Below the pieces are notes generated by a model. The model worked only from the letters and a program-made list of their open reading frames with translations. It made no database searches and was not told the origin of the DNA. From positions 1 through 64,000 of the IMG/VR virus record IMGVR_UViG_3300042446_001954: DNA of 64,000 nt; one strand, written 5' to 3'. The translations under genes were made by a program, and so were the position numbers. The stretch is from a virus. Below, one piece after another: positions 37,642 to 57,846 of this stretch; the stretch's first letter is position 1, and the number at the start of each line of letters is the position of its first letter.

Positions 37642-37642
37642 T

Positions 37643-39211: not shown

Positions 39212-39405
39212 TTGAAGATCCTAATAATTTTGGAATTATGACAACACATGAGGAAGAACAACATAGAAGAAGTCTATGCAATTCTTGTGAAAAGAAAACG
39301 CTTATGAATGACATAGAAACCTGTCATATGTGTGCATGTCCGATTGATTATGTAACGACTTATAAATTTAAAATTTGTCCTTTAAACAAGTGGGGTATAG
39401 AATAA
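39208..39405 (+). CDS. Small Cys-rich (zinc-finger-like) protein
   Basis: The 65-aa protein has the pairs CNSCEK and CHMCAC plus a final Cys in FKICPLNKWG, a compact zinc-ribbon-like arrangement. Similar small proteins with EEEQHRRSLCNSC-type starts occur near fibre genes of T4-like marine phages. It overlaps both neighbours (ATGA upstream; TAATG downstream). The function is unknown. Confidence 0.5.
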   Translation: MIEDPNNFGIMTTHEEEQHRRSLCNSCEKKTLMNDIETCHMCACPIDYVTTYKFKICPLNKWGIE

Positions 39406-39782
39406 TGGCACATTACGCAAAAGTAGAAAACGGAATCGTCACAAATGTGATTGTAGCCGGTCAAGAATTTATTGATTCTGGTGCAGTTGGTGACCCATCA
39501 ACTTGGATTCAAACGTCATACAACACTTTTGGTGGTACACATCGCACGGGTGGCACACCTCTTAGAAAAAATTATGCAGGTGTTGGTTATAATTATTTTG
39601 CAGACATTGATGCATTTGTACCGCCAAAACTTTTTGAGAGTTGGATTCTAGATACAGAAACTGGACTATGGAAACCACCAATACCTAGACCAGAAAATGG
39701 AGAGAATTTAATTTGGGATGAAGACCTTCAGAATTGGAAAGAAGGCGCTAACATTCTGCCATCACCTATCGGAGAAGTCTGA
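39405..39782 (+). CDS. Small conserved phage protein, MAHYAKVENGIV type
   Basis: The 125-aa product is read from the TAATG-coupled ATG at 39405. It begins MAHYAKVENGIVTNVIVAGQ, then TWIQTSYNTFGGTHRTGG, NYAGVGYNYFADIDAFVPPK and SWILDTETGLWKPPIPRPEN. This pattern is widespread in T4-like marine phages near fibre genes. It may be a fibre assembly or attachment protein, but the role is not established from sequence. Confidence 0.6.
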   Translation: MAHYAKVENGIVTNVIVAGQEFIDSGAVGDPSTWIQTSYNTFGGTHRTGGTPLRKNYAGVGYNYFADIDAFVPPKLFESWILDTETGLWKPPIPRPENGENLIWDEDLQNWKEGANILPSPIGEV

Positions 39783-42220
39783 TGGGTGTATCTTCAGGTC
39801 CAAATCTTGTCCGTGACAGTAACTTTCAAGTACACGTTTGTACTGGTTCAGGGACTTTTTTACCCAACTTTACAGGAACGGTTGAGGTTCTAGTTGTTGC
39901 TGGAGGTGGAGGTGGTGGTATGGACATGGGTGGTGGAGGTGGCGGCGGTGGCGTACTCACAAGTACAACAGAATCAGTTACAGCAGGAACACCAATCACA
40001 GTAACAGTGGGTGCTGGTGGAGTTGGTGCTCCGGCAGGTGGTCCACCACAACCATGGGGACACCAATTCACAACTAGCGCAACAAATGGAGGCAATTCAG
40101 TTTTTGGCTCACTCACAGCAGTTGGTGGTGGATACGGCGGTAGTTCATATTTTGGATATACACCAAACTACGGATATGGAAACACTGGTGGGTCTGGCGG
40201 TGGCGCATCAGGATACTCTGATGGAAATACGGGAAGAAATGGTGCAGGAACAGCGGGACAAGGAAATGCTGGCGGCACAAGTGTAGGTCAATATTATTCG
40301 GGTGGCGGCGGCGGCGCAGGTGCAGCCGGTTCCAATGGTGGCACAGCAAACGGCGGCGCAGGTTTACTGAATAATATTTTAGGTGGTGGCAGAAACTATT
40401 ATTGGGCAGGTGGCGGGGGTGGCGCAGGTTATAGTAGCGGTGTCGGTGGCAACGGAGGCTTGGGTGGAGGCGGTGGCGGTTCATCTAATGGAATCGGAGA
40501 TACAAATGGATTAAATCCTGGAAGAAATGCTGGAGCAGGAGGTGGAGGTGATTGGGTTAATTCACCAGGAGGTGATGGTGGTAAAAGCACCGGCGGCGGC
40601 GGTGGAGGAGGGATGCATTATAACCGAAATAATCGAGGAGGCAATGGCGGCTCAGGTATCGTCATCATACGACACCTTAAATCTTTAGGAACATCCACCT
40701 TTAACGGTTTAGCTGATAACAGAAACTCAATAATATTTTCTATGGACCCTGCAAATTTAGGAAAAGGATTATCTGTTGAGGTTCTAGTTGTTGCTGGAGG
40801 TGGAGGTGGCGGTATGGACATGGGCGGCGGCGGAGGTGCAGGAGGTGTAGTTTATAATTCTGCCATGTCGGTGCAAATAAATTCTCCGATGAGTGTAATC
40901 GTAGGAGCAGGAGGTAATGGATCACCTGGAACTTATGGAAGTAATCCTGCCACTGGATCAACTGGAGGAAATTCATCAGTTGGTGAAGTTGTTGGTTATG
41001 GTGGAGGTGGAGGTGGATCAGGACACAGTAGTTCAATTGGTTATTCTGGAAATGCAAATGGAACAAGTGGCAATGGAGGTGGCGCCGGTGGAGATTCAGC
41101 CAAAAGTGGTGAAGGTAAAGGTATGGGAACAGATCCGGCACCTTTGGCTGTCCCTCAGGGTTACTCAGGAGGTTCGGCTATGCCATATGCATATGGCGCG
41201 GGCGGCGGAGGAGGTGCTACGCGCCCGGGTACAGGAGGGCGTTATTCTGGTGGCCTGGCCGGTGCAGGCGGTGCAGGTTATCAATCTTCTATAAATGGAA
41301 CTTCTTATTATTATGGTGGAGGAGGTGGCGGAGCATCTTGGACAAACAATGCAGGAAGTGGCGGCTTGGGCGGCGGTGGCGGCGGAAGCTGTTATCCGGG
41401 TTACACAGCAGGTTCGGGCGATACTAATGGAATAAATGCTGGAGGGTCCGGTACAGCAGTAATTAGTTCCAATGGTGGCAATGGTGGCACCAATACAGGC
41501 GGTGGAGGTGGCGGTGGTACACACTCAACATCTGTTGGGGGCAATGGCGGTTCTGGAATAGTTATCGTCAGATATTCAGGAAGTCAAAAAGCAACTGGCG
41601 GCACAATAACATCATCTGGTGGATATACCATACACACTTTCACTGGCTCAGGAACATTTACACCCACAGAATGGATCGGTCCCAGAGATTTGAGTGAAAT
41701 TGGTTCTGCACTCACAGTCAATGGAGCAACATATAGTTCCGATAATGGAGGGTGTTATGTATTCGACAATGATATAATTGATACTACTTTTCCAGCAACA
41801 ACTATTCCAACAAGCACACTTGAGGCAGTAATATATCCAACAGTAAATGGAAGATACGTTGCCATCATACAAATTAACAGCAATTCAGATGATGCTTTGT
41901 ACATATATCCAGGCAATACATTAGGATTTTGGCCACATAGTGCATCATCATTGAGTGTCAATATAAATCAATGGTCATATGTTTGTGCTTCCTATGATGG
42001 ATCCGGTGTAAGATATTGTGTTAATGGAAATTTTGATTATGCTGCCGGCGCATCGGCCGATTTTACAGATTATCAATATCTCAGAATAGGTGGAATATCA
42101 ACCACCGACGGAGAAAGATTTGTTGGTAAAATATCATTGGCGAAAGCATATAACCGAGCACTCACAGAATCTGAAATAATCCAAAACTTCAACGCACTCC
42201 GTGGTCGTTTCGGAATCTAA
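39782..42220 (+). CDS. Glycine-rich adhesin with two polyglycine domains and a LamG end
   Basis: The 812-aa protein has two related Gly-rich domains. The first (about 35-300) opens [20 protein letters not shown], and the second (about 332-605) repeats [20 protein letters not shown] with variable loops. A linker with [14 protein letters not shown] follows. The C-terminal jelly roll (about 640-812) ends [11 protein letters not shown]. Long Gly runs split by short variable loops resemble the polyglycine-II sandwich of gp38-type adhesins such as phage S16, where loops bind the receptor. This is probably a receptor-binding tip protein. The gene is coupled to the preceding one by TAATG. Confidence 0.7.
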
Positions 42221-42226
42221 TAAATA
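42219..42226 (+). promoter_or_regulatory. Late promoter-like box AATAAATA (42256 fibre)
   Basis: AATAAATA lies 29 nt before the ATG at 42256 and overlaps the stop of the glycine-rich adhesin gene. It has one mismatch at the first base of the T4 late consensus. Confidence 0.55.
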
Positions 42227-42228
42227 CC

Positions 42229-42240
42229 ATTGGTACCAAT
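42229..42240. promoter_or_regulatory. 12-bp perfect palindrome ATTGGTACCAAT
   Basis: The palindrome ATTGGTACCAAT lies 2 nt after the AATAAATA box, about where transcription would start, and 15 nt before the next ATG. It could be a protein-binding site or a chance restriction-type palindrome. Confidence 0.3.
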
Positions 42241-42255
42241 AAAAAGAATAACATC

Positions 42256-44844
42256 ATGGCAAACTCAGACAAGAATATTTTAATCACACCGAGAACTGGA
42301 TCAACGACAGACGATCCTAGCATTGTATTCACGGGCGCAAACACTGCCGGTTTATTTCCAATTACTGTAAGGGCTTTACCCACTTCTAACGGCACATTGT
42401 CGTTTGAAGGTTCTGCGGGACAATTGTTTTCTGTCACAAATGATTTGACTGGTACAATTTTCTCTGTCAATGACGTATCTGGTATACCTTCAATTGAAGT
42501 ATTGGATACAGGCACAGTCAAACTTGCACAATATTCCGGTAGTGTTTTGGTTGGTGGAACAGCAACTGATGGTGTTTCTAAACTGCAAGTTACAGGTTCT
42601 GCTAACGTTTCTTCTTTGAGAATACAAGGATTCGGCCAAGTCATTAGTAGCACAGGAACATGGACTGGACCAAATTCTGGATTAATAGGACCAACCGGAC
42701 CACAGGGACCTATCGGACCATTAGGACCTATCGGACCCATTGGACCTATCGGACCACAGGGTCCCATCGGACCTATCGGACCCATTGGACCTATCGGACC
42801 ACAGGGACCCATCGGTCCATTAGGACCTATCGGACCCATTGGACCTATCGGACCACAGGGACCTATCGGACCATTAGGACCTATCGGACCCATTGGACCT
42901 ATCGGACCACAGGGTCCCATCGGACCTATCGGACCCATTGGACCTATCGGACCACAGGGACCCATCGGTCCATTAGGACCTATCGGACCTATTGGACCTA
43001 TCGGACCACAGGGACCTATCGGACCACAGGGACCCATCGGACCATTAGGACCTATTGGACCTATTGGACCTATCGGACCACAGGGACCCATCGGTCCATT
43101 AGGACCTATCGGACCTATTGGACCTATCGGACCACAGGGACCTATCGGACCTATTGGTAATCAAGGACCTATTGGACCTATTGGTAATCAAGGACCTATT
43201 GGACCAATCGGACCTATCGGACCCATAGGTTCAACAGGCACCACAAGTTTCAACGTATGTAATACAACAAACATTGTAAGCTGCATTTCTGGTGGTGGTG
43301 GAACAGGAACAAACAACTTCTTTGCTGGTTTCTGTGCTGGTGTCTGCAACACCACTGGCAGCCACAACAACTTCTTTGGAGAAGCTGGTCGTTTCAATAC
43401 CACTGGCTGCTACAACAACTTCTTTGGTTGCTGTGCCGGCCGCAACAACACCACCGGCGGCAACAACAACTTTATTGGTTCTGATGCTGGACGTTACAAC
43501 ACCACTGGCGCACATAACAACTTCTTTGGTAACGGTGCTGGTCGCTGCAACACCACTGGCTCCTACAACAACTTCTTTGGTGTCAATGCTGGTCGCAATA
43601 ACACCACCGGCGGTTACAACAACTTCTTTGGCCACAGTGCTGGTCGAGTCAACACCACTGGCTCCTTCAACACCTTCATTGGTTGCTATGCTGGACGTTA
43701 CAACACCACCGGTTGCAACAACAACTTCTTTGGCCCAAATGCTGGTCGTTTCAATACCACTGGCACCAACAACAACTTCTTTGGTTCTACTGCTGGTTTC
43801 AACAACACCACCGGCGGCAACAACAACTTTATTGGTTGTAGTGCTGGTCGCAACAATACCACTGGCCAGGGCAACAACTTCATTGGTACTTATGCTGGTT
43901 GCTGCAACACCGCTGGCAACTTCAACAACTTCTTTGGTGCTTGTGCTGGTCGATTCAACACCACCGGTAGCTACAACAACTTCATTGGTGGCTGTGCTGG
44001 TCTTTGCAACACCACTGGCAACTTCAACAACTTCTTTGGTCTGTGTGCTGGTCTCTTCAACACCACCGGTAGCCACAACTTCTTTGCTGGTTTCTGTGCT
44101 GGTCGCAACAATACCACTGGCAGCTTCAACAACTTCTTTGGTTTAAATGCTGGTTTCTGCAACACCTCTGGCTGCTTTAACGCTTTTGCTGGTAACTGTG
44201 CTGGTTTCAGAAACACCACTGGTTGCCACAACACGTTTATTGGTTTATTTGCTGGTTTCGCTAGTACCATTGGCAGCAACAACTTCTTTGCTGGTTTCTG
44301 TTCTGGTCTCAATAACACCACTGGTTGTAACAACATCTTCATTGGTGCCAATGCTGGTCTCTGCAACACCACTGGCTCCAGCAACTTATTATTTGGCTGC
44401 AATTCTGGCGCAGGTCTACCCGTTGGTCTTGCCAACATTACAACACAAAATGGCCGCATCATTATGGGTAACAATACTCACACTTGCGCCCAAATACAAA
44501 TTGCATGGACCACAGTTTCCGATATTCGGGATAAATGTATTTTTGGTAATGTGCCACACGGCCGTGGGTTCTTAAAGAAAATTAATCCAATCGAGTTTGC
44601 ATTCAAGAACAGAGAAACAAATGAAATAACCGATCCTAATGGCAAGCGCCGTTACGGTTTCTCTGCTCAAGAAATTCTTGAAGCTGAAGGTGATAGCAAT
44701 GTTGTAGTTTCTAATGAAGAACCAGATAAACTTCAAGTTACTAATGATTATTTGATACCCATTCTTGTGAACGCAGTGAACGAATTGACAGTAGAAGTTG
44801 ATGAACTCAGAGCTAGAATTACAGCTATTGAGAGAGCAAATTAA
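42256..44844 (+). CDS. Second S74-chaperoned fibre with collagen-like and NTTG repeats
   Basis: This 862-aa paralogue of the 2083-aa fibre lacks most of the N-terminal repeat region. Residues 1-140 form an attachment domain. A collagen-like tract follows (about 145-328), then the shared [18 protein letters not shown] linker. Twenty-one NTTG units occupy about residues 353-717. The S74 chaperone has SDIRDKC with Ser near residue 755 and [15 protein letters not shown], then a coiled coil. The linker and C-terminal domain closely match the giant fibre, so the two probably share assembly and exchange sequence. Late promoter AATAAATA precedes it. Confidence 0.85.
42688..43239 (+). repeat. Collagen-like tract of the 862-aa fibre
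   Basis: About 184 residues of Gly-X-Y triplets, mostly GPI with regular GPL and GPQ, show higher-order 15- and 18-residue periodicity. The tract leads into the same [10 protein letters not shown] linker as in the giant fibre. Confidence 0.95.
43312..44406 (+). repeat. 21 NTTG repeats of about 17 residues
   Basis: Twenty-one units of the NTTGxxNNFFGxxAGxx type, with Cys at the same positions as in the giant fibre. A block of four units (EAGRF, CCAGRN, DAGRY, then AHNNFFG) matches the giant fibre at 31081-31260 in order and in the missing codon. Confidence 0.9.
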
Positions 44845-44879: not shown

Positions 44880-45530
44880 ATGAAGAAAGTTTTGATTGCT
44901 ACGCCATGTTTGGACCAAAAGGTTGATGCATATTTTGTGCATAGCCTTTGTGAGTCGATAAAGTTAGGTCTCAAACACGACCTAGATATTCGCTGTGTAT
45001 TTCTTGCAAATGAAAGTATTCTTCCAATGGCTCGGAATGAACTTTTTACATTAGCACACAAAGAAAATTACGATATAATGGTATTCATCGATGATGACGA
45101 ATATTGGAAAGAATCTGTTTTAATAGATATCATCTTATCGGAAAAAGATGTTATCACAGTCCCCGTTGTGAACAAAGGTGATAAAGATATATCATATAAT
45201 ATTTGGCTTCCTAAGACTCCAGAGATTGATCCAACCGATGGTTATGTAAAGGTTGAAAAATCAGGAACAGGTTTCCTAAAACTATCTCGTAAAGTCATAG
45301 TCGATCTCTGGGAATCAAATACCGAATTAAATTTCCGAGGCAAACAACTAAGAAACATCTGTGAGTATACATATTCAGATGGTGGGTTTGTTGGCGAAGA
45401 CATTACATTGTCCAAAAAAATCAAAGAATTAGGTTACACAATCTGGTGTAACCCACACCATACAGTGTCGCACATCGGTAATAAAATGTACAAAGGCGAC
45501 TTTAAGAAAAGCAATTCTTCTCTTTTGTGA
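44880..45530 (+). CDS. GT-A (family 2-like) glycosyltransferase
   Basis: The 216-aa protein starts MKKVLIATPCLDQKVDAYFV. It has an Asp-rich metal site, VFIDDDEYWKESVLIDIIL (D71-D73), the GT-A DxD-like motif. The C-terminal part includes GGFVGEDITLSKKIKELGYT and WCNPHHTVSHIGNKMYKGDF, a pattern of phage GT-A enzymes with ED-type and His residues. AAAGGA precedes the ATG. It opens a cassette of six sugar and sulfate genes and overlaps the next gene (TGATG). Donor and acceptor sugars are unknown. Confidence 0.75.
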   Translation: MKKVLIATPCLDQKVDAYFVHSLCESIKLGLKHDLDIRCVFLANESILPMARNELFTLAHKENYDIMVFIDDDEYWKESVLIDIILSEKDVITVPVVNKGDKDISYNIWLPKTPEIDPTDGYVKVEKSGTGFLKLSRKVIVDLWESNTELNFRGKQLRNICEYTYSDGGFVGEDITLSKKIKELGYTIWCNPHHTVSHIGNKMYKGDFKKSNSSLL

Positions 45531-46822
45531 TGAGCAAACAATTTGACATTATTATACCCACGATGTGGGCTGCTAAAAGTTTTTTAAAATCTTTAGAAAA
45601 ATATATCTCTTATGACTCAGTGAGGTCGATCATTATAATCGACAATAACAAATCACGAAAGCCAAAGACAGATTTACTCAAACATAAAAAGGTCCAACTG
45701 ATCAGTTATGGCTTTAACATGTACGTCAATCCGGCATGGAATGAGGGTGTTTCAGCAGCAAAGTCTAATCTTTTATGTATTGCAAATGACGATATCACGA
45801 TAGAAGAATCTATATTTAAAATGATATCTGATCAAGGAATGAACACTGGTGATCTGGTCGGTGTGAACCTTCGTGGCTATCACGACAACTATAAGATTGA
45901 CGATTACATAGAAACGGATGAAAAAATTGTTCATCTGAACTATGACAGAACAAAGCCTATTGGCTCTCAAGCATGGGCATTTGGTATATGTATGTTCATG
46001 CAGAAAGACACATATTGCCAGATACCTAGCCTCTATAAGGTATGGTTTGGTGATGATTACTTGGCACAAAAAGCAAAGAAAATCTACGCCATAAATACTA
46101 ACAGAATCAAGGGTACAATCTCTGAGACACTGAAGCGACACGATCACAAAACGGATATTCATAAACGATTGATACTTGACTGTAAAAATCTAATTCGTTT
46201 TGATCACTTTGAAAATGGAAAAAATTGGGACATCCCAAAAAATATGATATCTGCAAATTATGAACAAACACCAAATAATGTGTTAGAATCGGAATACAAT
46301 AAAGCTAGAAATGTTATTTCCGACATAAACGAAAACGTACACATTCTTTATGATCTAGCAAAAGAATGCACACATGTAACAGAAATGGGCGTTAGAACTG
46401 GTGTTAGTACGAGAGCACTACTTTACTCTGGTGTGAATAAGTTAATATCATATGACTTGAATTTAGATTCAAAAGTCGAAAGTCTTTTTAAGTATGCAAA
46501 ATCGATTGGAAGAGATGCTGAATATATAAAGGCAGATGTACTCAAAATTGAGATTGAAGAAACTGACTTACTCTTCATTGACACTTACCACACCTATAGT
46601 CAGCTTAAACAGGAACTTCAATTACACGGAAACAAAGCTAGAAAATATTTGGCTTTCCATGATACTATGACATTTGGACTCACAGGTGAGAATACAAAAG
46701 AGGGAAACGGCCTTTTATCGGCAATCATAGAGTTTATTATCAAGAATCCGCACTGGAAATTCAAGATATATAAAACAAATAATAATGGTTTTACAGTATT
46801 AGAAAGAGTGATGAATAAATGA
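45530..46822 (+). CDS. Fused GT2-type glycosyltransferase and SAM methyltransferase
   Basis: The 430-aa product is read from the ATG overlapping the preceding stop (TGATG); an in-frame GTG lies 1 codon upstream. Residues 1-230 are GT-A-like: FDIIIPTMWAAKSFLKSLEK, then IIIIDNN near residue 34, ANDD at 85-88 and a WFGDD block near 172. Residues about 265-430 form a class I methyltransferase of the Methyltransf_24 type: CTHVTEMGVRTGVSTRALLY with the Gly-rich SAM motif near 285-294, DLNLDS, and LLFIDTYHTYSQLKQEL. The joining of sugar transfer and methylation suggests a methyl-capped glycan. It overlaps the next gene by ATGA. Confidence 0.75.
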   Translation: MSKQFDIIIPTMWAAKSFLKSLEKYISYDSVRSIIIIDNNKSRKPKTDLLKHKKVQLISYGFNMYVNPAWNEGVSAAKSNLLCIANDDITIEESIFKMISDQGMNTGDLVGVNLRGYHDNYKIDDYIETDEKIVHLNYDRTKPIGSQAWAFGICMFMQKDTYCQIPSLYKVWFGDDYLAQKAKKIYAINTNRIKGTISETLKRHDHKTDIHKRLILDCKNLIRFDHFENGKNWDIPKNMISANYEQTPNNVLESEYNKARNVISDINENVHILYDLAKECTHVTEMGVRTGVSTRALLYSGVNKLISYDLNLDSKVESLFKYAKSIGRDAEYIKADVLKIEIEETDLLFIDTYHTYSQLKQELQLHGNKARKYLAFHDTMTFGLTGENTKEGNGLLSAIIEFIIKNPHWKFKIYKTNNNGFTVLERVMNK

Positions 46823-47724
46823 GCAACCAAAAATACAGTATATTTCACATTCAAGGTGGAATTGGTAAACATATCGCCGCAACCGCAGTTGCAAGAGCAA
46901 TTAAAAACAACCACCCAGATCGTAAACTGATTATTGTTTGTGCATATACAGACATATTCATTAACCTTCCGTTCGTTGATAGAGTGTATCAAATAGGTGC
47001 AACACAATATTTTTACCAAGAATACATTCATGAAAAAGATTCGATAATTTTTCATCATGAGCCTTACTATACCACGAATCATATTCATAAGAGAAAATCA
47101 CTTATACCAAACTGGTGTGAGTTGTATGGACTCGCCTATTCAGGTGAGAAGCCTGAACTAAAATTTAATAAACTCCAGTTTGATGTATCAAAACAATTTT
47201 GGAATCGTAAGAAACCGATAATGTTGATACAGACAAATGGTGGTCCAATGTCACCAGATGCAAAATCACATTCTTGGACCCGTGATATGCCAGAAGATGT
47301 TGCTCAAAAATTGGTTGATCACTACAAGAATAATTATCACATCTATCAAGTAACTAAAATGAATTCGGTAAAGTTGATCGGCGCAGAACACATCTATGGA
47401 ACACCAACAAAAGTTCTCAGCCTTATGGAATTTTTTAGTGTTTTACTTCATGCGAAAAAAAGAATTTTAATAGATTCATGTTTGCAACATGCGGCTGCGG
47501 CAATGAATCGCAAGTCTACCGTATTGTGGAATGGAACAAGTCCCAAAGTATTCGGCTATGACTTACACGACAATATTACAACAGATGTTCCTTATGATTT
47601 TAAACTTCCAGGAAGCTATCTGTTTGATTTTGACTTTAATGGGAATGAGGTTGAGTATCCATACACAGAAACAACTCAACTATACGACATAAATAAGATC
47701 ATAGATTCTGTTGATAAACAATGA
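46819..47724 (+). CDS. GT9-like (heptosyltransferase-type GT-B) glycosyltransferase
   Basis: The 301-aa protein begins MSNQKYSIFHIQGGIGKHIA. It resembles GT9 enzymes, which start with an I-x-GG-x-GD/GK loop and then an A-x-A-x-A helix (AATAVARAIKNNHPDRKLII). The C-terminal half has MLIQTNGGPM, LMEFFSVLLHAKKRILIDSC and LQHAAAAMNRKSTVLWNGTS, the donor-binding half of a GT-B fold. It may act on an ADP- or GDP-linked sugar. It overlaps the GT2-methyltransferase by ATGA and precedes the sulfotransferase by 15 nt. Confidence 0.65.
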   Translation: MSNQKYSIFHIQGGIGKHIAATAVARAIKNNHPDRKLIIVCAYTDIFINLPFVDRVYQIGATQYFYQEYIHEKDSIIFHHEPYYTTNHIHKRKSLIPNWCELYGLAYSGEKPELKFNKLQFDVSKQFWNRKKPIMLIQTNGGPMSPDAKSHSWTRDMPEDVAQKLVDHYKNNYHIYQVTKMNSVKLIGAEHIYGTPTKVLSLMEFFSVLLHAKKRILIDSCLQHAAAAMNRKSTVLWNGTSPKVFGYDLHDNITTDVPYDFKLPGSYLFDFDFNGNEVEYPYTETTQLYDINKIIDSVDKQ

Positions 47725-47739
47725 AAAGGACAATGTGAA

Positions 47740-48708
47740 ATGAAAGAAATGATTAAAGAAATTATCCGTGAAGAAATGGCTCGCGCACAGGAAAAGACTT
47801 ATTACTTTATGGCAGGACTACCCCGTTCAGGTAGCACAATGCTCTCTGCGATTTTAAATCAAAATCCACGATTTTATTCTGGTCCCAGTTCTCCAGTAAC
47901 TGGTTTGATGATCATGTTAGAACAACAAATATCTCAAGATGAACTTTTCCGAGCATTTCCAAAAAATGAACAAGCTGGACAAATTATCGCAAATGTGATT
48001 AAACACTATTATAGTGATGTTGAGGAACCGGTAATCTTTGACAAAAATCGGTCATGGGTCAACCGTATTCATTATATTCCAGGATACTTCGGATGTGAAG
48101 CTAAAATTATTTGCCCAGTGAGAAACACCTCCGAAATCTTATCTTCATTCATCGCAATGCACAAGAGAAATCCATATGAAGTGAATGGTAAAATAAACTT
48201 TCTTGATGAGATGCTTGTAAAGTCGAATATTTCACTCACTGATGAAAATCGTTGCCAACTACTTATGTCCGAAATGGGAATTGTTGGTCAGAGCTATACT
48301 GGTCTCAAACAAGCATTGATGGAAGGCAAACAAAAGAACCTTCATTTTGTAGAGTATGAGGACCTAGTTACAAATGCTGAAGCTACCATGCGAAAGTTAT
48401 ATGAATTTCTTGGTGAAGAATATTACGAAGCACACGATTATGAAAATTTAGAAAATGTGCATAAAGAAAATGACGCTGAAGTTTATGGCTTTTCGGACAT
48501 GCACGACATTCGCAAATCGGTAGGAAAATCTGGAATTAATCCAGAAGAAATTCTTCCAGAATCAATACTTAAAGCATGTGAAGGTTCTGAATTTTGGAGA
48601 TCAATTGAAGAAGATATAAATACCGGCGATACAACATATCAAGAATCTGTAACGGATGATGTTGATAATAACTCATCAACAAATAATGAAAAACTAATAG
48701 GAGCATAA
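47740..48708 (+). CDS. Sulfotransferase (PAPS-dependent)
   Basis: The 322-aa protein has the sulfotransferase P-loop FMAGLPRSGSTMLSAILNQN (residues 23-42), which binds the 5'-phosphosulfate of PAPS. IICPVRNTSEILSSF follows at about 123-137, where the Arg and Ser usually bind the 3'-phosphate. A C-terminal VEYEDLVTNAEATMRKLYEF helix matches the family. After about residue 290 the tail is Asp/Ser/Asn-rich. AAAGGA lies before the ATG. The APS kinase-like protein two genes downstream could supply PAPS. Sulfated acceptors are rare in bacteria, so a phage glycan or host surface sugar is the likely target. Confidence 0.82.
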   Translation: MKEMIKEIIREEMARAQEKTYYFMAGLPRSGSTMLSAILNQNPRFYSGPSSPVTGLMIMLEQQISQDELFRAFPKNEQAGQIIANVIKHYYSDVEEPVIFDKNRSWVNRIHYIPGYFGCEAKIICPVRNTSEILSSFIAMHKRNPYEVNGKINFLDEMLVKSNISLTDENRCQLLMSEMGIVGQSYTGLKQALMEGKQKNLHFVEYEDLVTNAEATMRKLYEFLGEEYYEAHDYENLENVHKENDAEVYGFSDMHDIRKSVGKSGINPEEILPESILKACEGSEFWRSIEEDINTGDTTYQESVTDDVDNNSSTNNEKLIGA

Positions 48709-48710
48709 AA

Positions 48711-48995
48711 ATGGAAACACCACGCACAATCGAACAAATTCGAGGCACTATTCGATCCGCTAGAGACAGCGTTTGGGTCATTACAGATGAAATCGAAAAA
48801 CTGAATGCCGGCGGAACACCAAACGAAAATGCCAAAGGTAATATTGATCGTAACGTTTCGCATCTGAAGTTGGTCGTTTCTGATCAGGAAATAATCGATT
48901 CTGGTGAAGATATTGCTGACCTCACCGCAGCAATTACAACTGGTGAAGCAAAACTTGCCGAAGATATTTGGCCTGCGGACGAAGACACAGTTTAA
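48711..48995 (+). CDS. Small cassette protein, unknown
   Basis: The 94-aa protein starts METPRTIEQIRGTIRSARDS and contains two charged helical segments and an acidic C-terminus. No family is recognised. It begins 2 nt after the sulfotransferase stop and precedes the nucleotidyltransferase-cupin gene by 15 nt, so it is transcribed within the sugar/sulfate cassette. It could be an accessory or regulatory subunit. Confidence 0.5.
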   Translation: METPRTIEQIRGTIRSARDSVWVITDEIEKLNAGGTPNENAKGNIDRNVSHLKLVVSDQEIIDSGEDIADLTAAITTGEAKLAEDIWPADEDTV

Positions 48996-49010
48996 AAACT
49001 GATTTATATT

Positions 49011-49772
49011 ATGGACAATATTGTTATTTTTACAGGTGGTTTTGATCCAATTCACAGTGGACATATTTCTTGCATTAAAGAAGCAAGAAAACTGGGTAGA
49101 GTCGTAATCGGTTTAAACTCAGACGAATGGCTTACACGTAAAAAAGGTAAGCCATTTTTAACTTTCGAAGAGCGTAAAGCCGTTCTTGATGAGTTTAAAG
49201 ACATTTTATGTGTAATTGCTTTTGATGACTCAGATGACACAGCATCGGACGCTATTCGACAGGTTATGAATTTGTTTCCAAAAAACAAAATTATTTTTGT
49301 CAACGGCGGCGATAGAACAGAAGGCAATATTCCCGAACTGGAAGTTTTTCGTGACCAACCCAAAGTATCATTTCAATTCGGTATAGGCGGCCAAAATAAA
49401 AAAAATAGTTCCAGTTCTTTATTGTATGATTGGAATCAATCAACTGAAAAAAGAATTTGGGGCGATTCAAAGACCTATTACGACACTAAAGAGTCGAAGG
49501 TCAAAAGATTGGTGATCGAGCCAGGTAAATCAATTTCGATGCAATATCACCTGAGAAGAAACGAATTCTGGTTCATCGAATCTGGTGCAGGAACAATATA
49601 CACACTAGACGGTGAAAACATCATAAAACTGAAGACTATATATAAGCATGAAACCCATCATGTTTCTGTTGGTCAATGGCACATGATCAAAGCAGATACA
49701 GATGAAAAGCTGTGCATCATTGAAATTCAATATGGTAAATTATGTGAAGAAAAGGACATCGTAAGATTATGA
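49011..49772 (+). CDS. Fused cytidylyltransferase-type nucleotidyltransferase and cupin
   Basis: The 253-aa protein has an N-terminal TagD/RfaE-like nucleotidyltransferase domain: FTGGFDPIHSGHISCIKEAR with the HxGH motif H15-S-G-H18, VVIGLNSDEWLTRKKGKPFL, and an SSSSLL turn near 133-138 in place of ISTT. The C-terminal half (about 163-245) is a mannose-6-phosphate isomerase-like cupin: RLVIEPGKSISMQYHLRRNE, then FWFIESGAGTIYTLDGEN and HHVSVGQWHMI. The pair suggests making and shaping a nucleotide-activated sugar. It overlaps the APS kinase gene by ATGA. I do not know the substrate. Confidence 0.72.
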   Translation: MDNIVIFTGGFDPIHSGHISCIKEARKLGRVVIGLNSDEWLTRKKGKPFLTFEERKAVLDEFKDILCVIAFDDSDDTASDAIRQVMNLFPKNKIIFVNGGDRTEGNIPELEVFRDQPKVSFQFGIGGQNKKNSSSSLLYDWNQSTEKRIWGDSKTYYDTKESKVKRLVIEPGKSISMQYHLRRNEFWFIESGAGTIYTLDGENIIKLKTIYKHETHHVSVGQWHMIKADTDEKLCIIEIQYGKLCEEKDIVRL

Positions 49773-50626
49773 AAAAAATTCTAGTAATGGGTCTTCCTGG
49801 TTCAGGAAAAACATATCTCGCAGAAAGACTTAAAAAGTATCTAGAAGATAATGGTGATATCATGAAGATATCACCTGGTAAAGTTTTAAATTGTGAAGGA
49901 ATTCCAGACCACTCAATCTGGAAAGTTAGTGTCGATTGGTTTAATGCAGACGAAGTTCGCAAAAGATTTAACGATTGGGATTTTAGTAAAGAAGGTCGCA
50001 TTCGTCAAAGTATACGAATGTTTGAGTTTGCAATGAAGTGTAGTGGTGAATTTGTCATTTGCGACTTTGTTGCACCTCTACCAGAAATGCGTCACAATTT
50101 TAAAGCTGATTGGACGATTTGGATGGACACAATTGATGCTGGCAGATATGATGATACGAATAAAGCATTTGTACCACCAGATGTTTACGACTTTAGAATC
50201 ACCGAACAAAACGCAGAAAAATGGGTAGAATTCGTAGGCAACCACATACTTGAGGAGCGCCGTAGACCAAGATTCGATTGGCAAAAAGAAACTGTTCAAA
50301 TGTTAGGTCGTTGGCAGCCATGGCATCCAGGCCACAGAGCATTGTTTAACCGTGCTATCGCTAAGACAGGTCAGGTAGTCATTCAAATTCGTGACTGTCA
50401 AGGATGGCAAGGTAGTAATCCATTCGCAATCGAGCAAGTTAAGAACTATATTCGCAGAGACTTAGATCCACTCTATCAAGGCCAATACGAAATTCAAGTT
50501 GTTCCTAATATTGTAAATATTACCTACGGGCGTGACGTTGGTTATAAGATAGAACAAGAAGTTTTTACCGAAGAGGTACATTCAATCTCAGCCACAAAAA
50601 TTCGAGAACAAATGGGTTTAAAATAG
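49769..50626 (+). CDS. APS kinase-like protein fused to a nucleotidyltransferase
   Basis: The 285-aa protein has an N-terminal P-loop kinase, LVMGLPGSGKTYLAERL (GxxGxGKT at 8-15). It also has the CysC-like run WFNADEVRKRFNDWDFSKEG, RIRQSIRMFEF and VICDFVAPLPEMR, where APS kinases have D-x-D-x-R-x-GL, R-x-N and S-F-I-x-P. The C-terminal half (about 175-285) is a nucleotidyltransferase with GRWQPWHPGHRALFNRAI (HPGH 186-189) and HSISATKIRE, of the NMN adenylyltransferase-like type. The APS kinase part would make PAPS for the sulfotransferase. The second domain's substrate is open; ATP sulfurylase activity is one possibility. Confidence 0.7.
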   Translation: MKKILVMGLPGSGKTYLAERLKKYLEDNGDIMKISPGKVLNCEGIPDHSIWKVSVDWFNADEVRKRFNDWDFSKEGRIRQSIRMFEFAMKCSGEFVICDFVAPLPEMRHNFKADWTIWMDTIDAGRYDDTNKAFVPPDVYDFRITEQNAEKWVEFVGNHILEERRRPRFDWQKETVQMLGRWQPWHPGHRALFNRAIAKTGQVVIQIRDCQGWQGSNPFAIEQVKNYIRRDLDPLYQGQYEIQVVPNIVNITYGRDVGYKIEQEVFTEEVHSISATKIREQMGLK

Positions 50627-50640: not shown

Positions 50641-50700
50641 TTACTGATGGCATAAATACTTGGTAGTTTTAAAAATAAGGTATAATAATGCCATCAGTAA
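50641..50700 (+). promoter_or_regulatory. 13-bp inverted repeat enclosing the gp13 late promoter
   Basis: TTACTGATGGCAT (50641-50653) and ATGCCATCAGTAA (50688-50700) are perfect reverse complements. The second arm is the gp13 start codon and next three codons plus one base. The CATAAATA box lies at 50651-50658, so a transcript from it starts after the left arm. Only read-through RNA from the upstream cassette contains both arms and could hide the start codon. Confidence 0.75.
50651..50658 (+). promoter_or_regulatory. Late promoter-like box CATAAATA (gp13)
   Basis: CATAAATA lies 29 nt before the gp13 ATG, with an AAGG ribosome binding site at 50677-50680 between them. Its first three bases belong to the left arm of the 13-bp inverted repeat. 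Confidence 0.65.
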
Positions 50701-51464
50701 CAAATAGACAAACATTCAAAGAATACTGCTTACGTAGATTAGGTTTTCCAGTGATCGAAATCAATATTGACGACGACCAACTGGAAGACAGAATAGATGA
50801 TGCGTTTTCATACTGGCAAGACTACCATTTTGACGCACTGCAAAAGGTGTATTACATCAAACAGCTTGACGCTACAGATATCACAAATAAATATATCAAT
50901 ATGTCACCAAGCGTCACAAGAGATACAGGTAATAATGCAGTAAATATTGTCGGTGTAACAAGAGTATTTCCAATATCAGATTCGATCAACACAAATAATA
51001 TGTTCGATCTGCGTTATCAACTCCGTTTGAACGAACTGTACGACTTTACTTCTGCATCATATGTTAATTACACATTGACAATGCAACACCTACGTTCACT
51101 TGAGATCATGTTTACGGGTGAAGTACCTATTCGATTCCAAAGACACATGCATAAGCTATTTTGTGATTGGGGTTGGGGCACAGCCGTAAAAGCCGGAGAT
51201 GTAGTGATTGCTGAATCATATGCAATGATTGATTCCGCACAATACGCATCGGTTTGGAATGACCGTTGGCTTAAAAAATATGCAACAGCCCTCATCAAAA
51301 GAACTTGGGGAAACAATCTTAAAAAGTTTGCCGGCGTACAACTTCCTGGTGGTGTTGTGCTGAACGGTGATAAGATTTATGAAGAAGCTATGGAAGAAAT
51401 CAAAGAATTAGAAGAAGAAATGACAAATAGCTATTCGTTACCAGTTGAATTCTATTTAAACTAA
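50688..51464 (+). CDS. gp13: Neck protein gp13
   Basis: The 258-aa protein (T4 gp13 is 309 aa) has the neck protein pattern: RQTFKEYCLRRLGFPVIEIN, DDAFSYWQDYHFDALQKVYY, VTRVFPISDS and DLRYQLRLNELYDFTSASYV. The C-terminal part includes NDRWLKKYATALIKRTWGNN and LKKFAGVQLPGGVVLNGDKI. gp13 and gp14 join the tail to the head. The start codon lies in one arm of a perfect inverted repeat that could limit translation from read-through RNA. It is coupled to gp14 by TAATG. Confidence 0.9.
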   Translation: MPSVTNRQTFKEYCLRRLGFPVIEINIDDDQLEDRIDDAFSYWQDYHFDALQKVYYIKQLDATDITNKYINMSPSVTRDTGNNAVNIVGVTRVFPISDSINTNNMFDLRYQLRLNELYDFTSASYVNYTLTMQHLRSLEIMFTGEVPIRFQRHMHKLFCDWGWGTAVKAGDVVIAESYAMIDSAQYASVWNDRWLKKYATALIKRTWGNNLKKFAGVQLPGGVVLNGDKIYEEAMEEIKELEEEMTNSYSLPVEFYLN

Positions 51465-52339
51465 TGCCTACTAATTCGTATTTCAATAACTATAATTCAA
51501 ATCCGGAGCAAAGGCTCATCGAAGATTTGATGATTGAAACCATTAAAATTAATGGTGTGGATTGTTATTACATGACGAATGATAACGATGTTGCCAGAGA
51601 TTTATTGTATGGTGAAGACCCACTGAAACGATTCACATCGGCCTATCCACTTGATCTATACATTACAAACGTAGATGGCTATGAAGGTGAACGGGAGTTT
51701 TTCTCTAAATTTGGTCTAGAAATTCGTAATAACATGTCTGTGATTGTATCTAAACGTACTTTTGCACGTTGGGTACCGCAGACATATAGCAGACCAAGAG
51801 AAGGTGATTTGATTTATATACCGTTTTTCTCACAAACAGGTGAGATGTATGAAATCAAGTATGTAAATTATACAGAAGCATTCTACATTATGGGTAACAA
51901 ATACCCATATTTCTACAAGCTAGAGCTAGAGAAGTTCAAATATTCACAAGAAACAATCGATGTTGGTATTTCAGATATTGATGATGTTGTTAATCTAGAT
52001 GCTTATAATATAACATTGAACGTGTCAGCAAATGTAAACTCAAATAACTTCATTGTTGGTGAAAGAGTGCGTGCAAATAATTCAGCAAACAATGTTGGAA
52101 CAGTTGTATACTGGAATAGACCAGACGGTGTGTTGAAAATCACCGACACACTTGGAACTTTTGCAAATAACTCAATAATGCAAGGTGCAAATAGTAATGC
52201 AACATTTACTATCTCATCAACACCAGACACTCTCTTAGACCCACAATCACGTGAAATGTATGATAATAAACTCATACAAACAGAGGCAACAGACTTTGTT
52301 GACTTATCTGAAATTAATCCATTCGGTACACCAACATGA
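51464..52339 (+). CDS. gp14: Neck protein gp14
   Basis: The 291-aa protein (T4 gp14 is 256 aa) shows typical gp14 blocks: NPEQRLIEDLMIETIKINGV, DCYYMTNDNDVARDLLYGED, EREFFSKFGLEIRNNMSVIV and RPREGDLIYIPFFSQTGEMY with YKLELEKFKYSQE. The C-terminal region after about residue 180 adds beta-rich sequence. With gp13 it closes the neck after head filling. It overlaps gp13 (TAATG) and gp15 (ATGA). Confidence 0.9.
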   Translation: MPTNSYFNNYNSNPEQRLIEDLMIETIKINGVDCYYMTNDNDVARDLLYGEDPLKRFTSAYPLDLYITNVDGYEGEREFFSKFGLEIRNNMSVIVSKRTFARWVPQTYSRPREGDLIYIPFFSQTGEMYEIKYVNYTEAFYIMGNKYPYFYKLELEKFKYSQETIDVGISDIDDVVNLDAYNITLNVSANVNSNNFIVGERVRANNSANNVGTVVYWNRPDGVLKITDTLGTFANNSIMQGANSNATFTISSTPDTLLDPQSREMYDNKLIQTEATDFVDLSEINPFGTPT

Positions 52340-53334
52340 GTTACGCATATCATAGAACAATTAGAAAAGTTGTTATCGCTTTTGGTAATCTTTTCAATGA
52401 AATTAAATTATCAAGGTATGATGATAACGGAGTAGAGCAGGAGAATTTTCTTGTTCCAATTGTGTATGGTGGAAAAGAGAAATATGTTTCACGTTTAGAC
52501 GGCGATCCAGAGTTGGACAAAAAAGTACAGATCACGTTACCTATTATGTCGTTTGAAATGACAAATATGACTTATGATCCTTCTCGTAAGTTAAACACCA
52601 ACATGAAGACAACAGCACACTCTGGTCAATCTGGATCTACACTGGCGGTTTATAATCCAGTTCCATTTGATTTTGAATTCTCACTCTTTGCATATGTACG
52701 AAACATCGAAGATGGCGCGCAACTTATGGAAAAGATTCTTCCATACTTTACACCAGATTATACTGTAAGTGTTAATTTAGTTCCAGAGATGGGTATTGTT
52801 AAACAATTACCTATTATACTAAAAGGTGTTACAAATGAAGTTGATTATGAGGGTGATTATAATTCAAAAGTTCGAAATGTTATCTGGACACTAACGTTCA
52901 CTGTAAAAGGTTACCTGTACGGTGCAATTAGAGAACCTAAAATAGTCAGAACAGCAATCACAAACATACTTGATGATAACAAATTAAAATACAATACAGT
53001 AACGGCCACAATGTCTTCTGGTGGGCTTGGTAATTATCAACTTGATGAAATTGTATACCAAGGTTACTCTTATGAAACTGCAACTGCAACAGCAAAAGTA
53101 CGTTCTTGGTATAGCACCACACGTAAACTAGAATTAACAGATTTGAACGGTCACTTTGTAACTGGCACCGGTGTCAAAGGTTATACAACAAACACAACTT
53201 GGGTACCATCATCTTTTGTGGCCACACCAATTAATACGGTTAGAGTGGAGATAAAACCTAATCCACTTAATGTTGTAATGCCTAACAACTATACATATAC
53301 CACACAAATAACAGAATTCCCCAATATTGTTTAA
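52336..53334 (+). CDS. gp15: Tail sheath stabiliser / tail completion gp15
   Basis: The 332-aa protein (T4 gp15 is 272 aa) contains YHRTIRKVVIAFGNLFNEIK, VPIVYGGKEKYVSRLDGDPE, KKVQITLPIMSFEMTNMTYD and FDFEFSLFAYVRNIEDGAQL, all typical of gp15. A longer C-terminal part (about 215-300) adds strand-rich sequence such as LGNYQLDEIVYQGYSYETAT. gp15 forms the hexameric cap on the finished tail. It overlaps gp14 by ATGA. Confidence 0.9.
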   Translation: MSYAYHRTIRKVVIAFGNLFNEIKLSRYDDNGVEQENFLVPIVYGGKEKYVSRLDGDPELDKKVQITLPIMSFEMTNMTYDPSRKLNTNMKTTAHSGQSGSTLAVYNPVPFDFEFSLFAYVRNIEDGAQLMEKILPYFTPDYTVSVNLVPEMGIVKQLPIILKGVTNEVDYEGDYNSKVRNVIWTLTFTVKGYLYGAIREPKIVRTAITNILDDNKLKYNTVTATMSSGGLGNYQLDEIVYQGYSYETATATAKVRSWYSTTRKLELTDLNGHFVTGTGVKGYTTNTTWVPSSFVATPINTVRVEIKPNPLNVVMPNNYTYTTQITEFPNIV

Positions 53335-53351
53335 GTACAATACACCAAAAA

Positions 53352-53774
53352 ATGTCCAAATTTGAAAACAGTATGAGTGAAATATTTGATGTGGTACCAA
53401 AGACCATCGAAAAAACCGAACACTTACCCGCAAAAATAGAATCACAAGTTACCAAAAACCTTGATGGTGACCTCGATGATGATTATCAAGAATCGAGACA
53501 AACACTTAAAGAGTTGGTTGTAAAAGGTAATCAAGCAATCGACCATCTCCTTGCTATTGCATCAGAGACAGAACACCCACGTGCATTTGAAGTTGTTGCT
53601 ACTCTCATTAAGAATACAGCAGAAGCAAATGAAAAATTAATGGCGATGCAGAAGACCATTAGAGAACTAAAGAACATTAAGAAGAATGATTCTGGTTTTA
53701 ATGTAGACAAGGCCATTTTTGTAGGCTCAACTTCAGAACTTTCAAAATTGTTAAAAGCAAAGAATGCCGATTAA
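53352..53774 (+). CDS. gp16: Terminase small subunit gp16
   Basis: The 140-aa protein (T4 gp16 is 164 aa) has an acidic N-terminus and the typical core: YQESRQTLKELVVKGNQAID, HLLAIASETEHPRAFEVVAT, LIKNTAEANEKLMAMQKTIR. It regulates the gp17 motor and helps select DNA for packaging. No Shine-Dalgarno is obvious before the ATG. It overlaps gp17 by 11 nt, which is the usual arrangement. Confidence 0.9.
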   Translation: MSKFENSMSEIFDVVPKTIEKTEHLPAKIESQVTKNLDGDLDDDYQESRQTLKELVVKGNQAIDHLLAIASETEHPRAFEVVATLIKNTAEANEKLMAMQKTIRELKNIKKNDSGFNVDKAIFVGSTSELSKLLKAKNAD

Positions 53775-55434
53775 TAATAAAGATTCTTACCGTGACAATC
53801 CGTTACTAAAAAGAGCCGGAGTTGAACACGCATATACACAGGAAGAAGTTGATGAGTACATAATGTGTGCCAAAGATCCTGTGTATTTTGCAATGAAATA
53901 TATCAAGATTGTCAACGTTGATCTAGGTCTCATTCCGTTTCGTATGTGGGAATTTCAAAAAGAAATGATTCGCACATACCATGAAAATCGTTTTTCAATT
54001 ACAAAATGTCCTCGTCAGGTCGGTAAAACAACCACATCAGTTGCATATCTTCTTTGGGTAACACTTTTCCAAGACTCACAAAACATTGCCGTTCTTGCTA
54101 ACAAAGGCTCACTAGCCCGTGACATTCTAGCAAAGTATCAACTAGCATACGAAAACCTTCCTATGTGGCTCCAACAGGGTGTGGTGACATGGAACAAGGG
54201 TAATGTAGAACTTGAAAACGGGTCAAAAATTATTGCGGCATCCACATCAAGTTCAGCAGTTCGTGGTGGAGCATTCAACATTGTATTCTTGGACGAATTT
54301 GCATTCGTTCCGGCTAACATTGCCAATGAGTTTTTTAACTCTGTTTACCCTGTTATATCATCTGGTAAGACCACAAAAATTATCATTGTGTCAACACCTA
54401 ATGGTATGAATTTATTCTACAAATTGTGGATGGACGCTATTGGTAAGAAGAACGGTTACAAAACGTTTCAAATTCACTGGTCTATGGTTCCAGGTCGAGA
54501 TGAAAAGTGGAAAGAAGAAACAATTGAGAACACGTCCGAAGAACAGTTTCGTCAGGAGTTTGAATGTGAATTCTTGGGTTCCACAAATACGCTTATCTCA
54601 GGATCAAAACTGGCTCAGTTGGTGTATCAAGAGCCAATTGCCAAACATGAGATGTTGCACATTTATGAATATCCAATTAAAGGTGATGAAGAACGTTCTG
54701 CTGACCATATCTATGCTATCACAGTTGATCCAGCGGAAGGTAGAAACCTTGACGGTTCTGCATTCTCGGTATTTGACGTTTCATCGATACCATATCGTCA
54801 GGTCGCCAAATACAACTCATCATCCATTTCACCAGTTCTATTCCCAACTGTCATCTACAATACAGCGAAACTGTTCAATGATGCATACGTTCTAATAGAA
54901 ATAAATAATACACCTCAAATTGCCGACACTCTCCACCAAGACCTTGAGTATGAAAACGTGGTTAAGATTGAGACTGGAAACAAAAAAGCGCAGGCAATGG
55001 GTACAGGTTTTGGTCGTGGCATTCAGCTTGGTCTAAAAATGTCACCACAAGTTAAAAGGATTGGATGTTCCAACCTGAAAACTTTAATAGAAAATGACAA
55101 GTTAATTATTAATGACTTTGATACCATCTCAGAATTAACAACTTTTGTGTCAAATCACAACAGTTTCAAAGCTGAAGAAGGTGCAAATGATGACATTGTG
55201 ATGACTTTGGTTATGTTTGCATGGATGACAACCAACCAGTATTTTAAAGAAATTGTCAACCATGATTTGAGAAAGCAGATGCAGTTAGAAATGTTGAATC
55301 AATCAGACGAAGAAATGCCATCTTTTGGTATCTTTGATGATGGTACTGATAAAAATTACATCGTAGAGAGTGGTGACGTTTGGCTTAAAAAAGAAGAAGA
55401 TTCGAATTCTCCTTCTAACTTTTTTATGTACTAA
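53764..55434 (+). CDS. gp17: Terminase large subunit gp17
   Basis: The 556-aa protein (T4 gp17 is 610 aa) has the N-terminal ATPase with Walker A CPRQVGKT (82-89), Walker B IVFLDEFAF (Asp177, Glu178) and coupling motif STPNG near 210. The C-terminal nuclease domain shows VDPAEGRNLDGSAFSVFDVS near 320-340 with its first catalytic Asp, and a late DDIVMTLVMFAW block. It is the packaging motor and headful nuclease. It starts inside gp16 and is followed by a 74-nt gap with a late promoter. Confidence 0.95.
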   Translation: MPINNKDSYRDNPLLKRAGVEHAYTQEEVDEYIMCAKDPVYFAMKYIKIVNVDLGLIPFRMWEFQKEMIRTYHENRFSITKCPRQVGKTTTSVAYLLWVTLFQDSQNIAVLANKGSLARDILAKYQLAYENLPMWLQQGVVTWNKGNVELENGSKIIAASTSSSAVRGGAFNIVFLDEFAFVPANIANEFFNSVYPVISSGKTTKIIIVSTPNGMNLFYKLWMDAIGKKNGYKTFQIHWSMVPGRDEKWKEETIENTSEEQFRQEFECEFLGSTNTLISGSKLAQLVYQEPIAKHEMLHIYEYPIKGDEERSADHIYAITVDPAEGRNLDGSAFSVFDVSSIPYRQVAKYNSSSISPVLFPTVIYNTAKLFNDAYVLIEINNTPQIADTLHQDLEYENVVKIETGNKKAQAMGTGFGRGIQLGLKMSPQVKRIGCSNLKTLIENDKLIINDFDTISELTTFVSNHNSFKAEEGANDDIVMTLVMFAWMTTNQYFKEIVNHDLRKQMQLEMLNQSDEEMPSFGIFDDGTDKNYIVESGDVWLKKEEDSNSPSNFFMY

Positions 55435-55451
55435 CTATAAAACCATCAATT

Positions 55452-55459
55452 CATAAATA
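55452..55459 (+). promoter_or_regulatory. Late promoter-like box CATAAATA (gp18)
   Basis: CATAAATA lies 49 nt before the gp18 ATG, followed by a hairpin and a strong AAGGAGAG ribosome binding site at about 55497-55504. It matches the T4 late consensus except the first base. Confidence 0.65.
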
Positions 55460-55461
55460 TA

Positions 55462-55493
55462 TTATAGGTTATTACTGCCAAATAACATTATAA
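55462..55493 (+). promoter_or_regulatory. 5' leader hairpin upstream of gp18
   Basis: TTATA-G-GTTATT pairs with AATAAC-AT-TATAA around a 7-nt loop (11 bp with a small internal loop). If transcription starts about 6 nt after the CATAAATA box, this hairpin would sit at the very 5' end of the sheath mRNA, where stems can slow RNA decay. Confidence 0.45.
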
Positions 55494-55508
55494 AACAAGG
55501 AGAGTAAA

Positions 55509-57269: not shown

Positions 57270-57275
57270 TAAATA
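57268..57275 (+). promoter_or_regulatory. Late promoter-like box AATAAATA (gp19)
   Basis: AATAAATA overlaps the gp18 stop codon and lies 20 nt before the gp19 ATG, with an AGGAGA ribosome binding site between them. It would give the tube gene its own strong late transcript. Confidence 0.6.
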
Positions 57276-57295
57276 ATAAGAAATAGGAGAAACAA

Positions 57296-57838
57296 ATGGC
57301 TTTCAACGTAACAGAGTTTCGTGCAAATCTCATCGGAGATGGTGCCCGCCCTAACCTGTTCCAAGTCACAATGACTTTCCCAACATTCGCTAACGACCCA
57401 GTAAATTCTGGACAAGCACTAACATTCCTTTGCAAGACTGCACAATTGCCAGGTTCAACTGTTGGTACTGTTCCACTTTATTACTTTGGTCGTGAGTTGA
57501 AGTTTGTTGGAAACAGAAACTTTGCTGACTGGACAGTTACTATTATCAATGATGAAAACTTCAAGGTTCGTAAAGGATTCGAATCATGGATGAATGGCAT
57601 CAATTCACACGGTGGAAACTTGCGTAATGCAGCAGCAACTTCACCTATTGGTTATTCAGTTGATGCTAAAGTAGATCAATTTGACAAAGCAGGCAATGTA
57701 ATAAAATCTTATAAGTTTGTTGGTGCTTTCCCTGTTGATTTATCACCTATTGATTTGGATTGGGGTTCTAACGATACTATCGAAGAATTTTCAGCAACCC
57801 TAGCATATCAGTGGTGGGAATCGGACACTACATCTTAA
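57296..57838 (+). CDS. gp19: Tail tube protein gp19
   Basis: The 180-aa protein (T4 gp19 is 163 aa) starts MAFNVTEFRANLIGDGARPN and has CKTAQLPGSTVGTVPLYYFG, WTVTIINDENFKVRKGFESW, MNGINSH, and LSPIDLDWGSNDTIEEFSAT with LAYQWWE, the standard tube subunit pattern. It polymerises on the gp54-like initiator at 1838-2506, whose layout it shares. AGGAGA precedes its ATG, and a stem-loop terminator follows 8 nt after the stop. Confidence 0.95.
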   Translation: MAFNVTEFRANLIGDGARPNLFQVTMTFPTFANDPVNSGQALTFLCKTAQLPGSTVGTVPLYYFGRELKFVGNRNFADWTVTIINDENFKVRKGFESWMNGINSHGGNLRNAAATSPIGYSVDAKVDQFDKAGNVIKSYKFVGAFPVDLSPIDLDWGSNDTIEEFSATLAYQWWESDTTS

Positions 57839-57846
57839 TTATATAC

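Follow-up and report, generated by a model that had tools for sequence, protein, structure and literature searches.

Dedicated genes for making 3'-phosphoadenosine 5'-phosphosulfate (PAPS) lie next to sulfotransferase and glycan genes in the rhizobial NodPQ-NodH system. PAPS genes together with sulfotransferases have been called a hallmark of sulfated-polysaccharide clusters and are known from bacterial capsule clusters, where cysNDC adjoins sulfotransferase and glycan genes (PMC11641403). The function of phage sulfotransferases was called unclear in 2023 (PMC10580990). The element described here is a seven-gene cassette at positions 44,880 to 50,626 of a 64,000-nucleotide stretch (the window), part of the 80,707-base IMG/VR virus record IMGVR_UViG_3300042446_001954. 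During infection the cassette probably builds a small glycan and adds sulfate to it, with the sulfate donor supplied by its last gene, KinNT.

As in the capsule clusters, a putative PAPS-making gene adjoins sulfotransferase and glycan genes, but one small fused enzyme takes the place of CysD, CysN and CysC, and the locus sits in a phage structural region. Like the human and animal PAPS synthases (PAPSS1/2), KinNT has an N-terminal kinase of the adenosine 5'-phosphosulfate (APS) type and a C-terminal nucleotidyltransferase (NT) in one chain, and the same two reactions are proposed for it; unlike them, it has 285 residues instead of about 620, a C-terminus of the nicotinamide mononucleotide (NMN) adenylyltransferase type instead of PF01747, and a lid that is remodelled in phage members. 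The sulfotransferase (ST) is related (31-38 % identity) to those of cyanophages S-SKS1 and S-SRM01, the latter near a glycosyltransferase, whereas those genomes lack KinNT and have other neighbouring genes. No description of the cassette or of the fused enzyme was found in the literature searched, many subscription papers lying outside it.

The six enzyme genes and one small gene listed in a first-pass annotation of the window were all confirmed as intact, near-contiguous open reading frames (ORFs) on one strand. The "one overlapping run" reported there holds for three of the six junctions (4-base overlaps), but the other three are gaps of 2-15 bases. Base composition is about that of the flanking genes. 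The cassette comprises:

44880..45530, + strand: GT2a, GT2-like glycosyltransferase, first cassette gene (phrog_1574 E 1e-15; Pfam GT2 sub-threshold)
45527..46822, + strand: GT2-MT, GT2-like domain fused to a Methyltransf_24-like domain (Pfam, sub-threshold)
46819..47724, + strand: GT9-like glycosyltransferase (Glyco_transf_9 19.2 bits, cut-off 22)
47740..48708, + strand: ST, PAPS-dependent sulfotransferase family (PF13469 2e-19, PF00685 1e-13, phrog_27463 1e-72)
48711..48995, + strand: sm94, small protein conserved in cassette relatives
49011..49772, + strand: NTcup, HxGH nucleotidyltransferase (HldE/TagD-like) with a mannose-6-phosphate isomerase-like cupin (Pfam, NCBIfam, PDB)
49769..50626, + strand: KinNT, APS-kinase-like domain (residues ~1-165) with a small NMN adenylyltransferase-type HxGH nucleotidyltransferase (~175-285) (profile, fold, context)

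The kinase-nucleotidyltransferase fusion

The first half of KinNT is classed as APS-kinase-like on its sequence, modelled fold and acceptor-site residues. The window protein scores 27.2 bits against Pfam APS_kinase (PF01583), narrowly over the curated cut-off of 21.1, and the domain was found in 56 of 60 family members. A profile of the kinase half matches APS kinases in the PDB (2yvu, 1e-13; human PAPSS1, ~1e-11), and the structural model (pLDDT 90) has an APS-kinase fold, with APS kinases as the top Foldseek matches (6e-7) and a Z score of 16.4 against 14.2 for the next kinase type. Walker A, DxVR and the GFSxxxR...R acceptor-site residues are present; G11xGK14, D61, R64, F72 and R83 are invariant, R77 occurs in every phage member and most others, a canonical N is Q in phage members, and rhizobial members retain the canonical NKDLGFSxEDR motif. 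Three features stand against a canonical enzyme: the lid (KGxY...FTGIDxPFE) is replaced by GRxxDTNKxFxPP, NCBIfam apsK falls far below its cut-off in the window protein (18.5 versus 138.7 bits), and the PF01583 alignment covers only about the first 90 positions. Because of the replaced lid and the missed apsK cut-off, the protein is filed as APS-kinase-like and not as a standard CysC, so that the earlier label of APS kinase-nucleotidyltransferase is upheld by Pfam, narrowly, and by fold, but not by apsK or the lid. Haloarchaeal homologues, two of which were read, have a complete canonical APS kinase, lid included, fused to the same NT (hhalign E 2e-33). The CDP-phosphoramidate kinase of capsule synthesis is also an APS-kinase relative, a possible parallel.

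The second half, left without a role in the first-pass annotation, is judged from its genomic context to be probably an unrecognised small ATP sulfurylase that carries out the APS-making step; KinNT would then be a compact PAPS synthase, one polypeptide that may perform both steps. There is a slightly better than even chance that this domain of ~120 residues is a new ATP sulfurylase family, forming with APS kinase a small PAPS synthase and, alone, the enzyme missing from SAR11. Its HxGH, NPF, GRxVGY and ISATKIR motifs hardly vary between phage, SAR11 and rhizobial members, so that NT looks active.

Most SAR11 bacteria have been reported to lack ATP sulfurylase though APS reductase (AprAB) is present (2023; PMC10356861). 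Of 118 Pelagibacteraceae genomes, only 5 had PF01747 (Sat), lying there beside non-apr genes; this count covers the PF01747 type of ATP sulfurylase, as opposed to the CysDN type, which limits the argument. NT adjoins aprBA in eight SAR11 loci, comprising four with NT only, two with split kinase and NT genes and two with fused KinNT; in all four NT-only loci read, it adjoins aprB and aprA on the same strand. The Apr subunits were identified by NCBIfam in one locus (aprA 995 bits, cut-off 642; aprB 189, cut-off 136) and by motif in the others. There is no such neighbour at one split locus that was examined or at most of the fused copies in SAR11. In Allochromatium (A. vinosum) sat lies immediately upstream of aprMBA and is co-transcribed with it (PMC3779200), and in the SAR11 loci NT occupies the place of Sat, whether the kinase accompanies it or not. 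Since APS is common to AprBA, APS kinase and the sulfation route, NT would make or consume APS, that is, act as an ATP sulfurylase, and the aprBA neighbours would account for NT without a kinase, which is puzzling for a role in sulfation. A CADD/PqqC-like protein is also near in those SAR11 aprBA operons with NT (L268-L273) that were inspected.

Sulfotransferases and the occurrence of the cassette

By sequence, the identity of ST as a sulfotransferase is beyond doubt, and the first-pass call passed the domain search by a wide margin (PF13469 71 bits versus a cut-off of 27; PF00685 51 versus 22). The profile match is joined by both PAPS-site motifs, PRSGSTML in the 5'-phosphosulfate-binding (5'-PSB) loop and RNTSEILSS at the 3'-phosphate-binding (3'-PB) site. 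The 3'-PB motif was found in the cassette relatives listed, by a motif search that replaced an alignment of all phage STs too diverged to read and that misses part of the diverged STs. The small protein sm94 directly follows ST in every cassette relative, including those without KinNT, conserves RDSVWVI...RNVxHL and matches no family in Pfam, PHROG or NCBIfam; it is likely a partner of the sulfotransferase.

The search for the same gene set that had been proposed for other phage genomes recovered the order GT2a, GT2-MT, GT9, ST, sm94, (NTcup), KinNT in about 25 uncultivated viral contigs of IMG/VR, with ST 55-100 % identical among them and the placement between fibre and neck genes kept. This retained order indicates a real, selected gene set rather than a chance grouping. 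No cultured phage had the whole cassette; cyanophages and single-cell marine viruses yielded ST alone, in a different gene neighbourhood.

KinNT occurs in more than 598 viral contigs, and the best 80 viral copies are 74-100 % identical even where gp13/gp14 identity is only 35-50 %. The ST cluster is the commonest neighbour within 7 kb of viral KinNT (54 of 95 loci, against 47 for gp13), in a set biased by the inclusion of loci fetched via ST. Among loci chosen by terminase, for which at least 3 kb upstream of gp13 was required, 3 of the 4 that have KinNT also have ST, compared with 1 of the 20 that lack KinNT (one-sided Fisher 0.008). Records of at least 60 kb chosen by KinNT had ST over the cut-off in 8 of 16 cases and a weak ST in 4 more, and terminase-chosen records without KinNT had it in 1 of 10. 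Two other clusters of KinNT neighbours resemble ST, one with a PF13469 match at E 1e-5, just below the cut-off, and one with none in Pfam; diverged ST-like proteins lie beside KinNT at L045 8078-8707 (PF13469, just below the cut-off) and L070 9336-9992 (no Pfam match). Near KinNT in seven loci (e.g. L185 4640-6373) is a 578-residue protein that by eye has a glycosyltransferase-like start and a 2-oxoglutarate hydroxylase-like end.

Cellular KinNT gave 272 matches in species genomes (SAR11, SAR86, Bradyrhizobium, Inquilinus, Reyranella, Chelatococcus, Microvirga and others), and homologues also occur on haloarchaeal plasmids; a strictly cassette-specific PAPS supplier is ruled out, the family being far wider than the cassette. 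Of 13 cellular genomes from outside SAR11 and SAR86, 9 have KinNT no more than 5 kb from an ST, even though PF13469 finds only 1-5 STs per genome; the Bradyrhizobium cases among them are not independent. On haloarchaeal plasmids of three genera, ST is followed by the KinNT homologue, annotated cysC; in loci L320, L321 and L325 the ST, a small ORF (in two of the three), the CysC-NT fusion and a YqcI/YcgG protein lie close together. Of the 118 Pelagibacteraceae genomes, 44 encode the kinase, and 37 of these also have ST; of the 74 without the kinase, 15 have ST, made up of 2 of the 17 that carry NT alone and 13 of the 57 that carry neither domain. These co-occurrence counts ignore phylogeny and many of the genomes are partial, which tempers their support. 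The kinase and NT domains are encoded separately, by two genes that overlap, in SAR86 and some of SAR11 (G054:C11:43299-44070, with equivalents in G055 and G056). The Rhizobium KinNT (G046:C1:704316-704990) lies inside an open frame of 590 residues and may be part of a larger fusion; no PF13469 or PF00685 sulfotransferase was found in that genome.

Since sequence, fold and genomic association all mark the kinase as APS-kinase-like, self-supply of PAPS by the phage, as proposed in the first-pass annotation, is the best reading, but it does not extend to every cassette. Some lack KinNT, and PAPS must then come from the host. One such record, G005 (236 kb), has a full-length psbA (L289 13388-14467, - strand) and so very likely infects a cyanobacterium, and KinNT is likewise absent from the named Synechococcus phages that have ST. 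Cyanobacteria make PAPS. No psbA motif was found in three KinNT records read almost whole. The pattern, in a small sample, fits a need for KinNT where the host gives no PAPS. The same marker screen for cyanophage origin found no psbA motif in the 160 kb read of G023, a record with ST and no KinNT.

Proposed pathway and alternative readings

From gene content and order, the APS-kinase-like fold, and the genomic association of KinNT with sulfotransferases and NT with APS reductase, we infer the following chemistry. The C-terminal domain of KinNT would join ATP and sulfate to form APS, which the N-terminal domain would convert to PAPS, and ST would use this PAPS to sulfate a glycan that the GT2, GT2-methyltransferase and GT9-like enzymes put together and that the methyltransferase half of GT2-MT probably O-methylates. 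Where present, NTcup would activate an unusual sugar or polyol. The most likely destination of the product is either the adjoining fibre/adhesin proteins or the surface of the infected cell.

The glycan genes carry weaker signals than ST. In GT2a relatives the FIDDDE and GEDI motifs are invariant and Pfam GT2 was found in 6 of 9 (best 8e-4); GT2-MT, the most divergent cassette gene (42-61 % in relatives), scores 21.7 bits for GT2 (cut-off 23.3) and 21.1 for Methyltransf_24 (26.3); and the GT9-like gene is 68-80 % identical among relatives, with Glyco_transf_9 in 9 of 13 (best 8e-4). No PDB match was obtained with the GT2a or GT9-like profile or with GT2-MT. The first-pass labels for these three genes are therefore borne out by families that recur in relatives and not by Pfam cut-offs. 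Both domains it named in NTcup are over their Pfam cut-offs (CTP_transf_like 45 versus 21 bits; MannoseP_isomer 55 versus 24), with NCBIfam rfaE_dom_II at 59 bits and PDB cytidylyltransferases at 1e-9. NTcup is absent from most cassette relatives, so the suggestion that the phage supplies activated sugar does not hold as a general feature, and the gene is a predicted optional module for sugar or polyol activation.

Several observations tell against the proposed pathway. All GT2 and GT9 assignments are sub-threshold; KinNT is missing from some cassettes; and KinNT is present with no recognisable sulfotransferase in two complete phages and in records G009 and G013. In sequence, NT is closest to NMN adenylyltransferase, with the GRxQPxHxGH, NPF and ISxTxxR motifs of that type, and the NT profile alone gave no ATP sulfurylase match. 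PF01747 was likewise not found in the KinNT family, so that KinNT would work like a PAPS synthase without being a member of that family. The structure matches listed for KinNT are all to one domain, with none separate for NT, and have no bearing on the NT fold. That NT is not recognisable as an ATP sulfurylase would suit a protein in which only the kinase half serves sulfation, using host APS, with NT inactive, regulatory or acting on another substrate; the dead ATP-sulfurylase-like domain of an Entamoeba APS kinase is a precedent (PMC13213808). We consider this unlikely, given the near-invariant motifs of NT and its occurrence on its own next to aprBA in SAR11 genomes that have no kinase. The NMN adenylyltransferases that are the closest solved relatives of NT prompted another candidate, salvage of nicotinamide adenine dinucleotide (NAD) by a NadR-like pairing of ribosylnicotinamide kinase and NMN adenylyltransferase, perhaps against NAD-depleting defences. 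It was rejected as very improbable on kinase identity and gene context, the kinase being APS-kinase-like rather than NadR-like, the neighbours being sulfotransferases and APS reductase, and every NCBIfam NMN adenylyltransferase cut-off being missed (best 24.8 versus 127 bits).

The acceptor and the destination were weighed against the surroundings of the cassette, which are as follows:

34594..44844, + strand: fibre/adhesin genes (collagen, fibrinogen-C, LamG, Gly-rich, S74; Pfam)
50688..59590, + strand: T4-type neck/terminase/portal block, directly downstream (phrog_211, terminase and portal matches)

The collagen, LamG, fibrinogen-C and S74 domains upstream agree with the reported position of the cassette after fibre or adhesin genes, whose products are possible substrates for decoration. 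Downstream, gp13, gp14, gp15, gp17, gp18 and gp20, assigned by order, include a T4-type terminase and a T4-type portal with up to 56 % identity to cyanomyoviruses, which identifies a T4-like myovirus; the cassette itself, as had been claimed, is not a standard T4 module. Sulfation of protein, for example fibre tyrosines, instead of a glycan is distinctly unlikely: tyrosylprotein sulfotransferases are the nearest solved structures to ST by sequence and fibres adjoin, but that match is weak (E 0.003) and mostly to the PAPS loop, and ST belongs to a conserved gene series that includes three glycosyltransferase-like genes. As to where the sulfated glycan goes, modification of the infected host surface (masking, superinfection exclusion) and not of the virion is a serious possibility, if somewhat short of an even chance; GT9-like and GT2 enzymes are typical of lipopolysaccharide or capsule synthesis, whereas the conserved place between fibre and neck genes suggests late expression with structural genes. 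Collagen-like GPIGPIG repeats occur in three large proteins (25780-32031, 34594-36720 and 42256-44844), two of which end in a sub-threshold S74-type chaperone domain.

Significance for phages and marine bacteria

For phage sulfotransferases the cassette gives a testable answer, namely sulfated sugars together with sulfate activation that the phage brings to hosts that may have none. PAPS genes beside sulfotransferases were already known, and there is a fair chance that the ATP sulfurylase family is new. KinNT is a candidate compact enzyme for making PAPS; if so, it would be far smaller than the PAPS synthases of animals, and phages and bacteria would have spread it along with sulfotransferases. 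NT may also be the ATP sulfurylase that most SAR11 are reported to lack, a gap in marine sulfur cycling (PMC10356861); if this is true, NT in the aprBA operon would let SAR11, among the commonest bacteria in the ocean, turn sulfite into sulfate with a gain of ATP.

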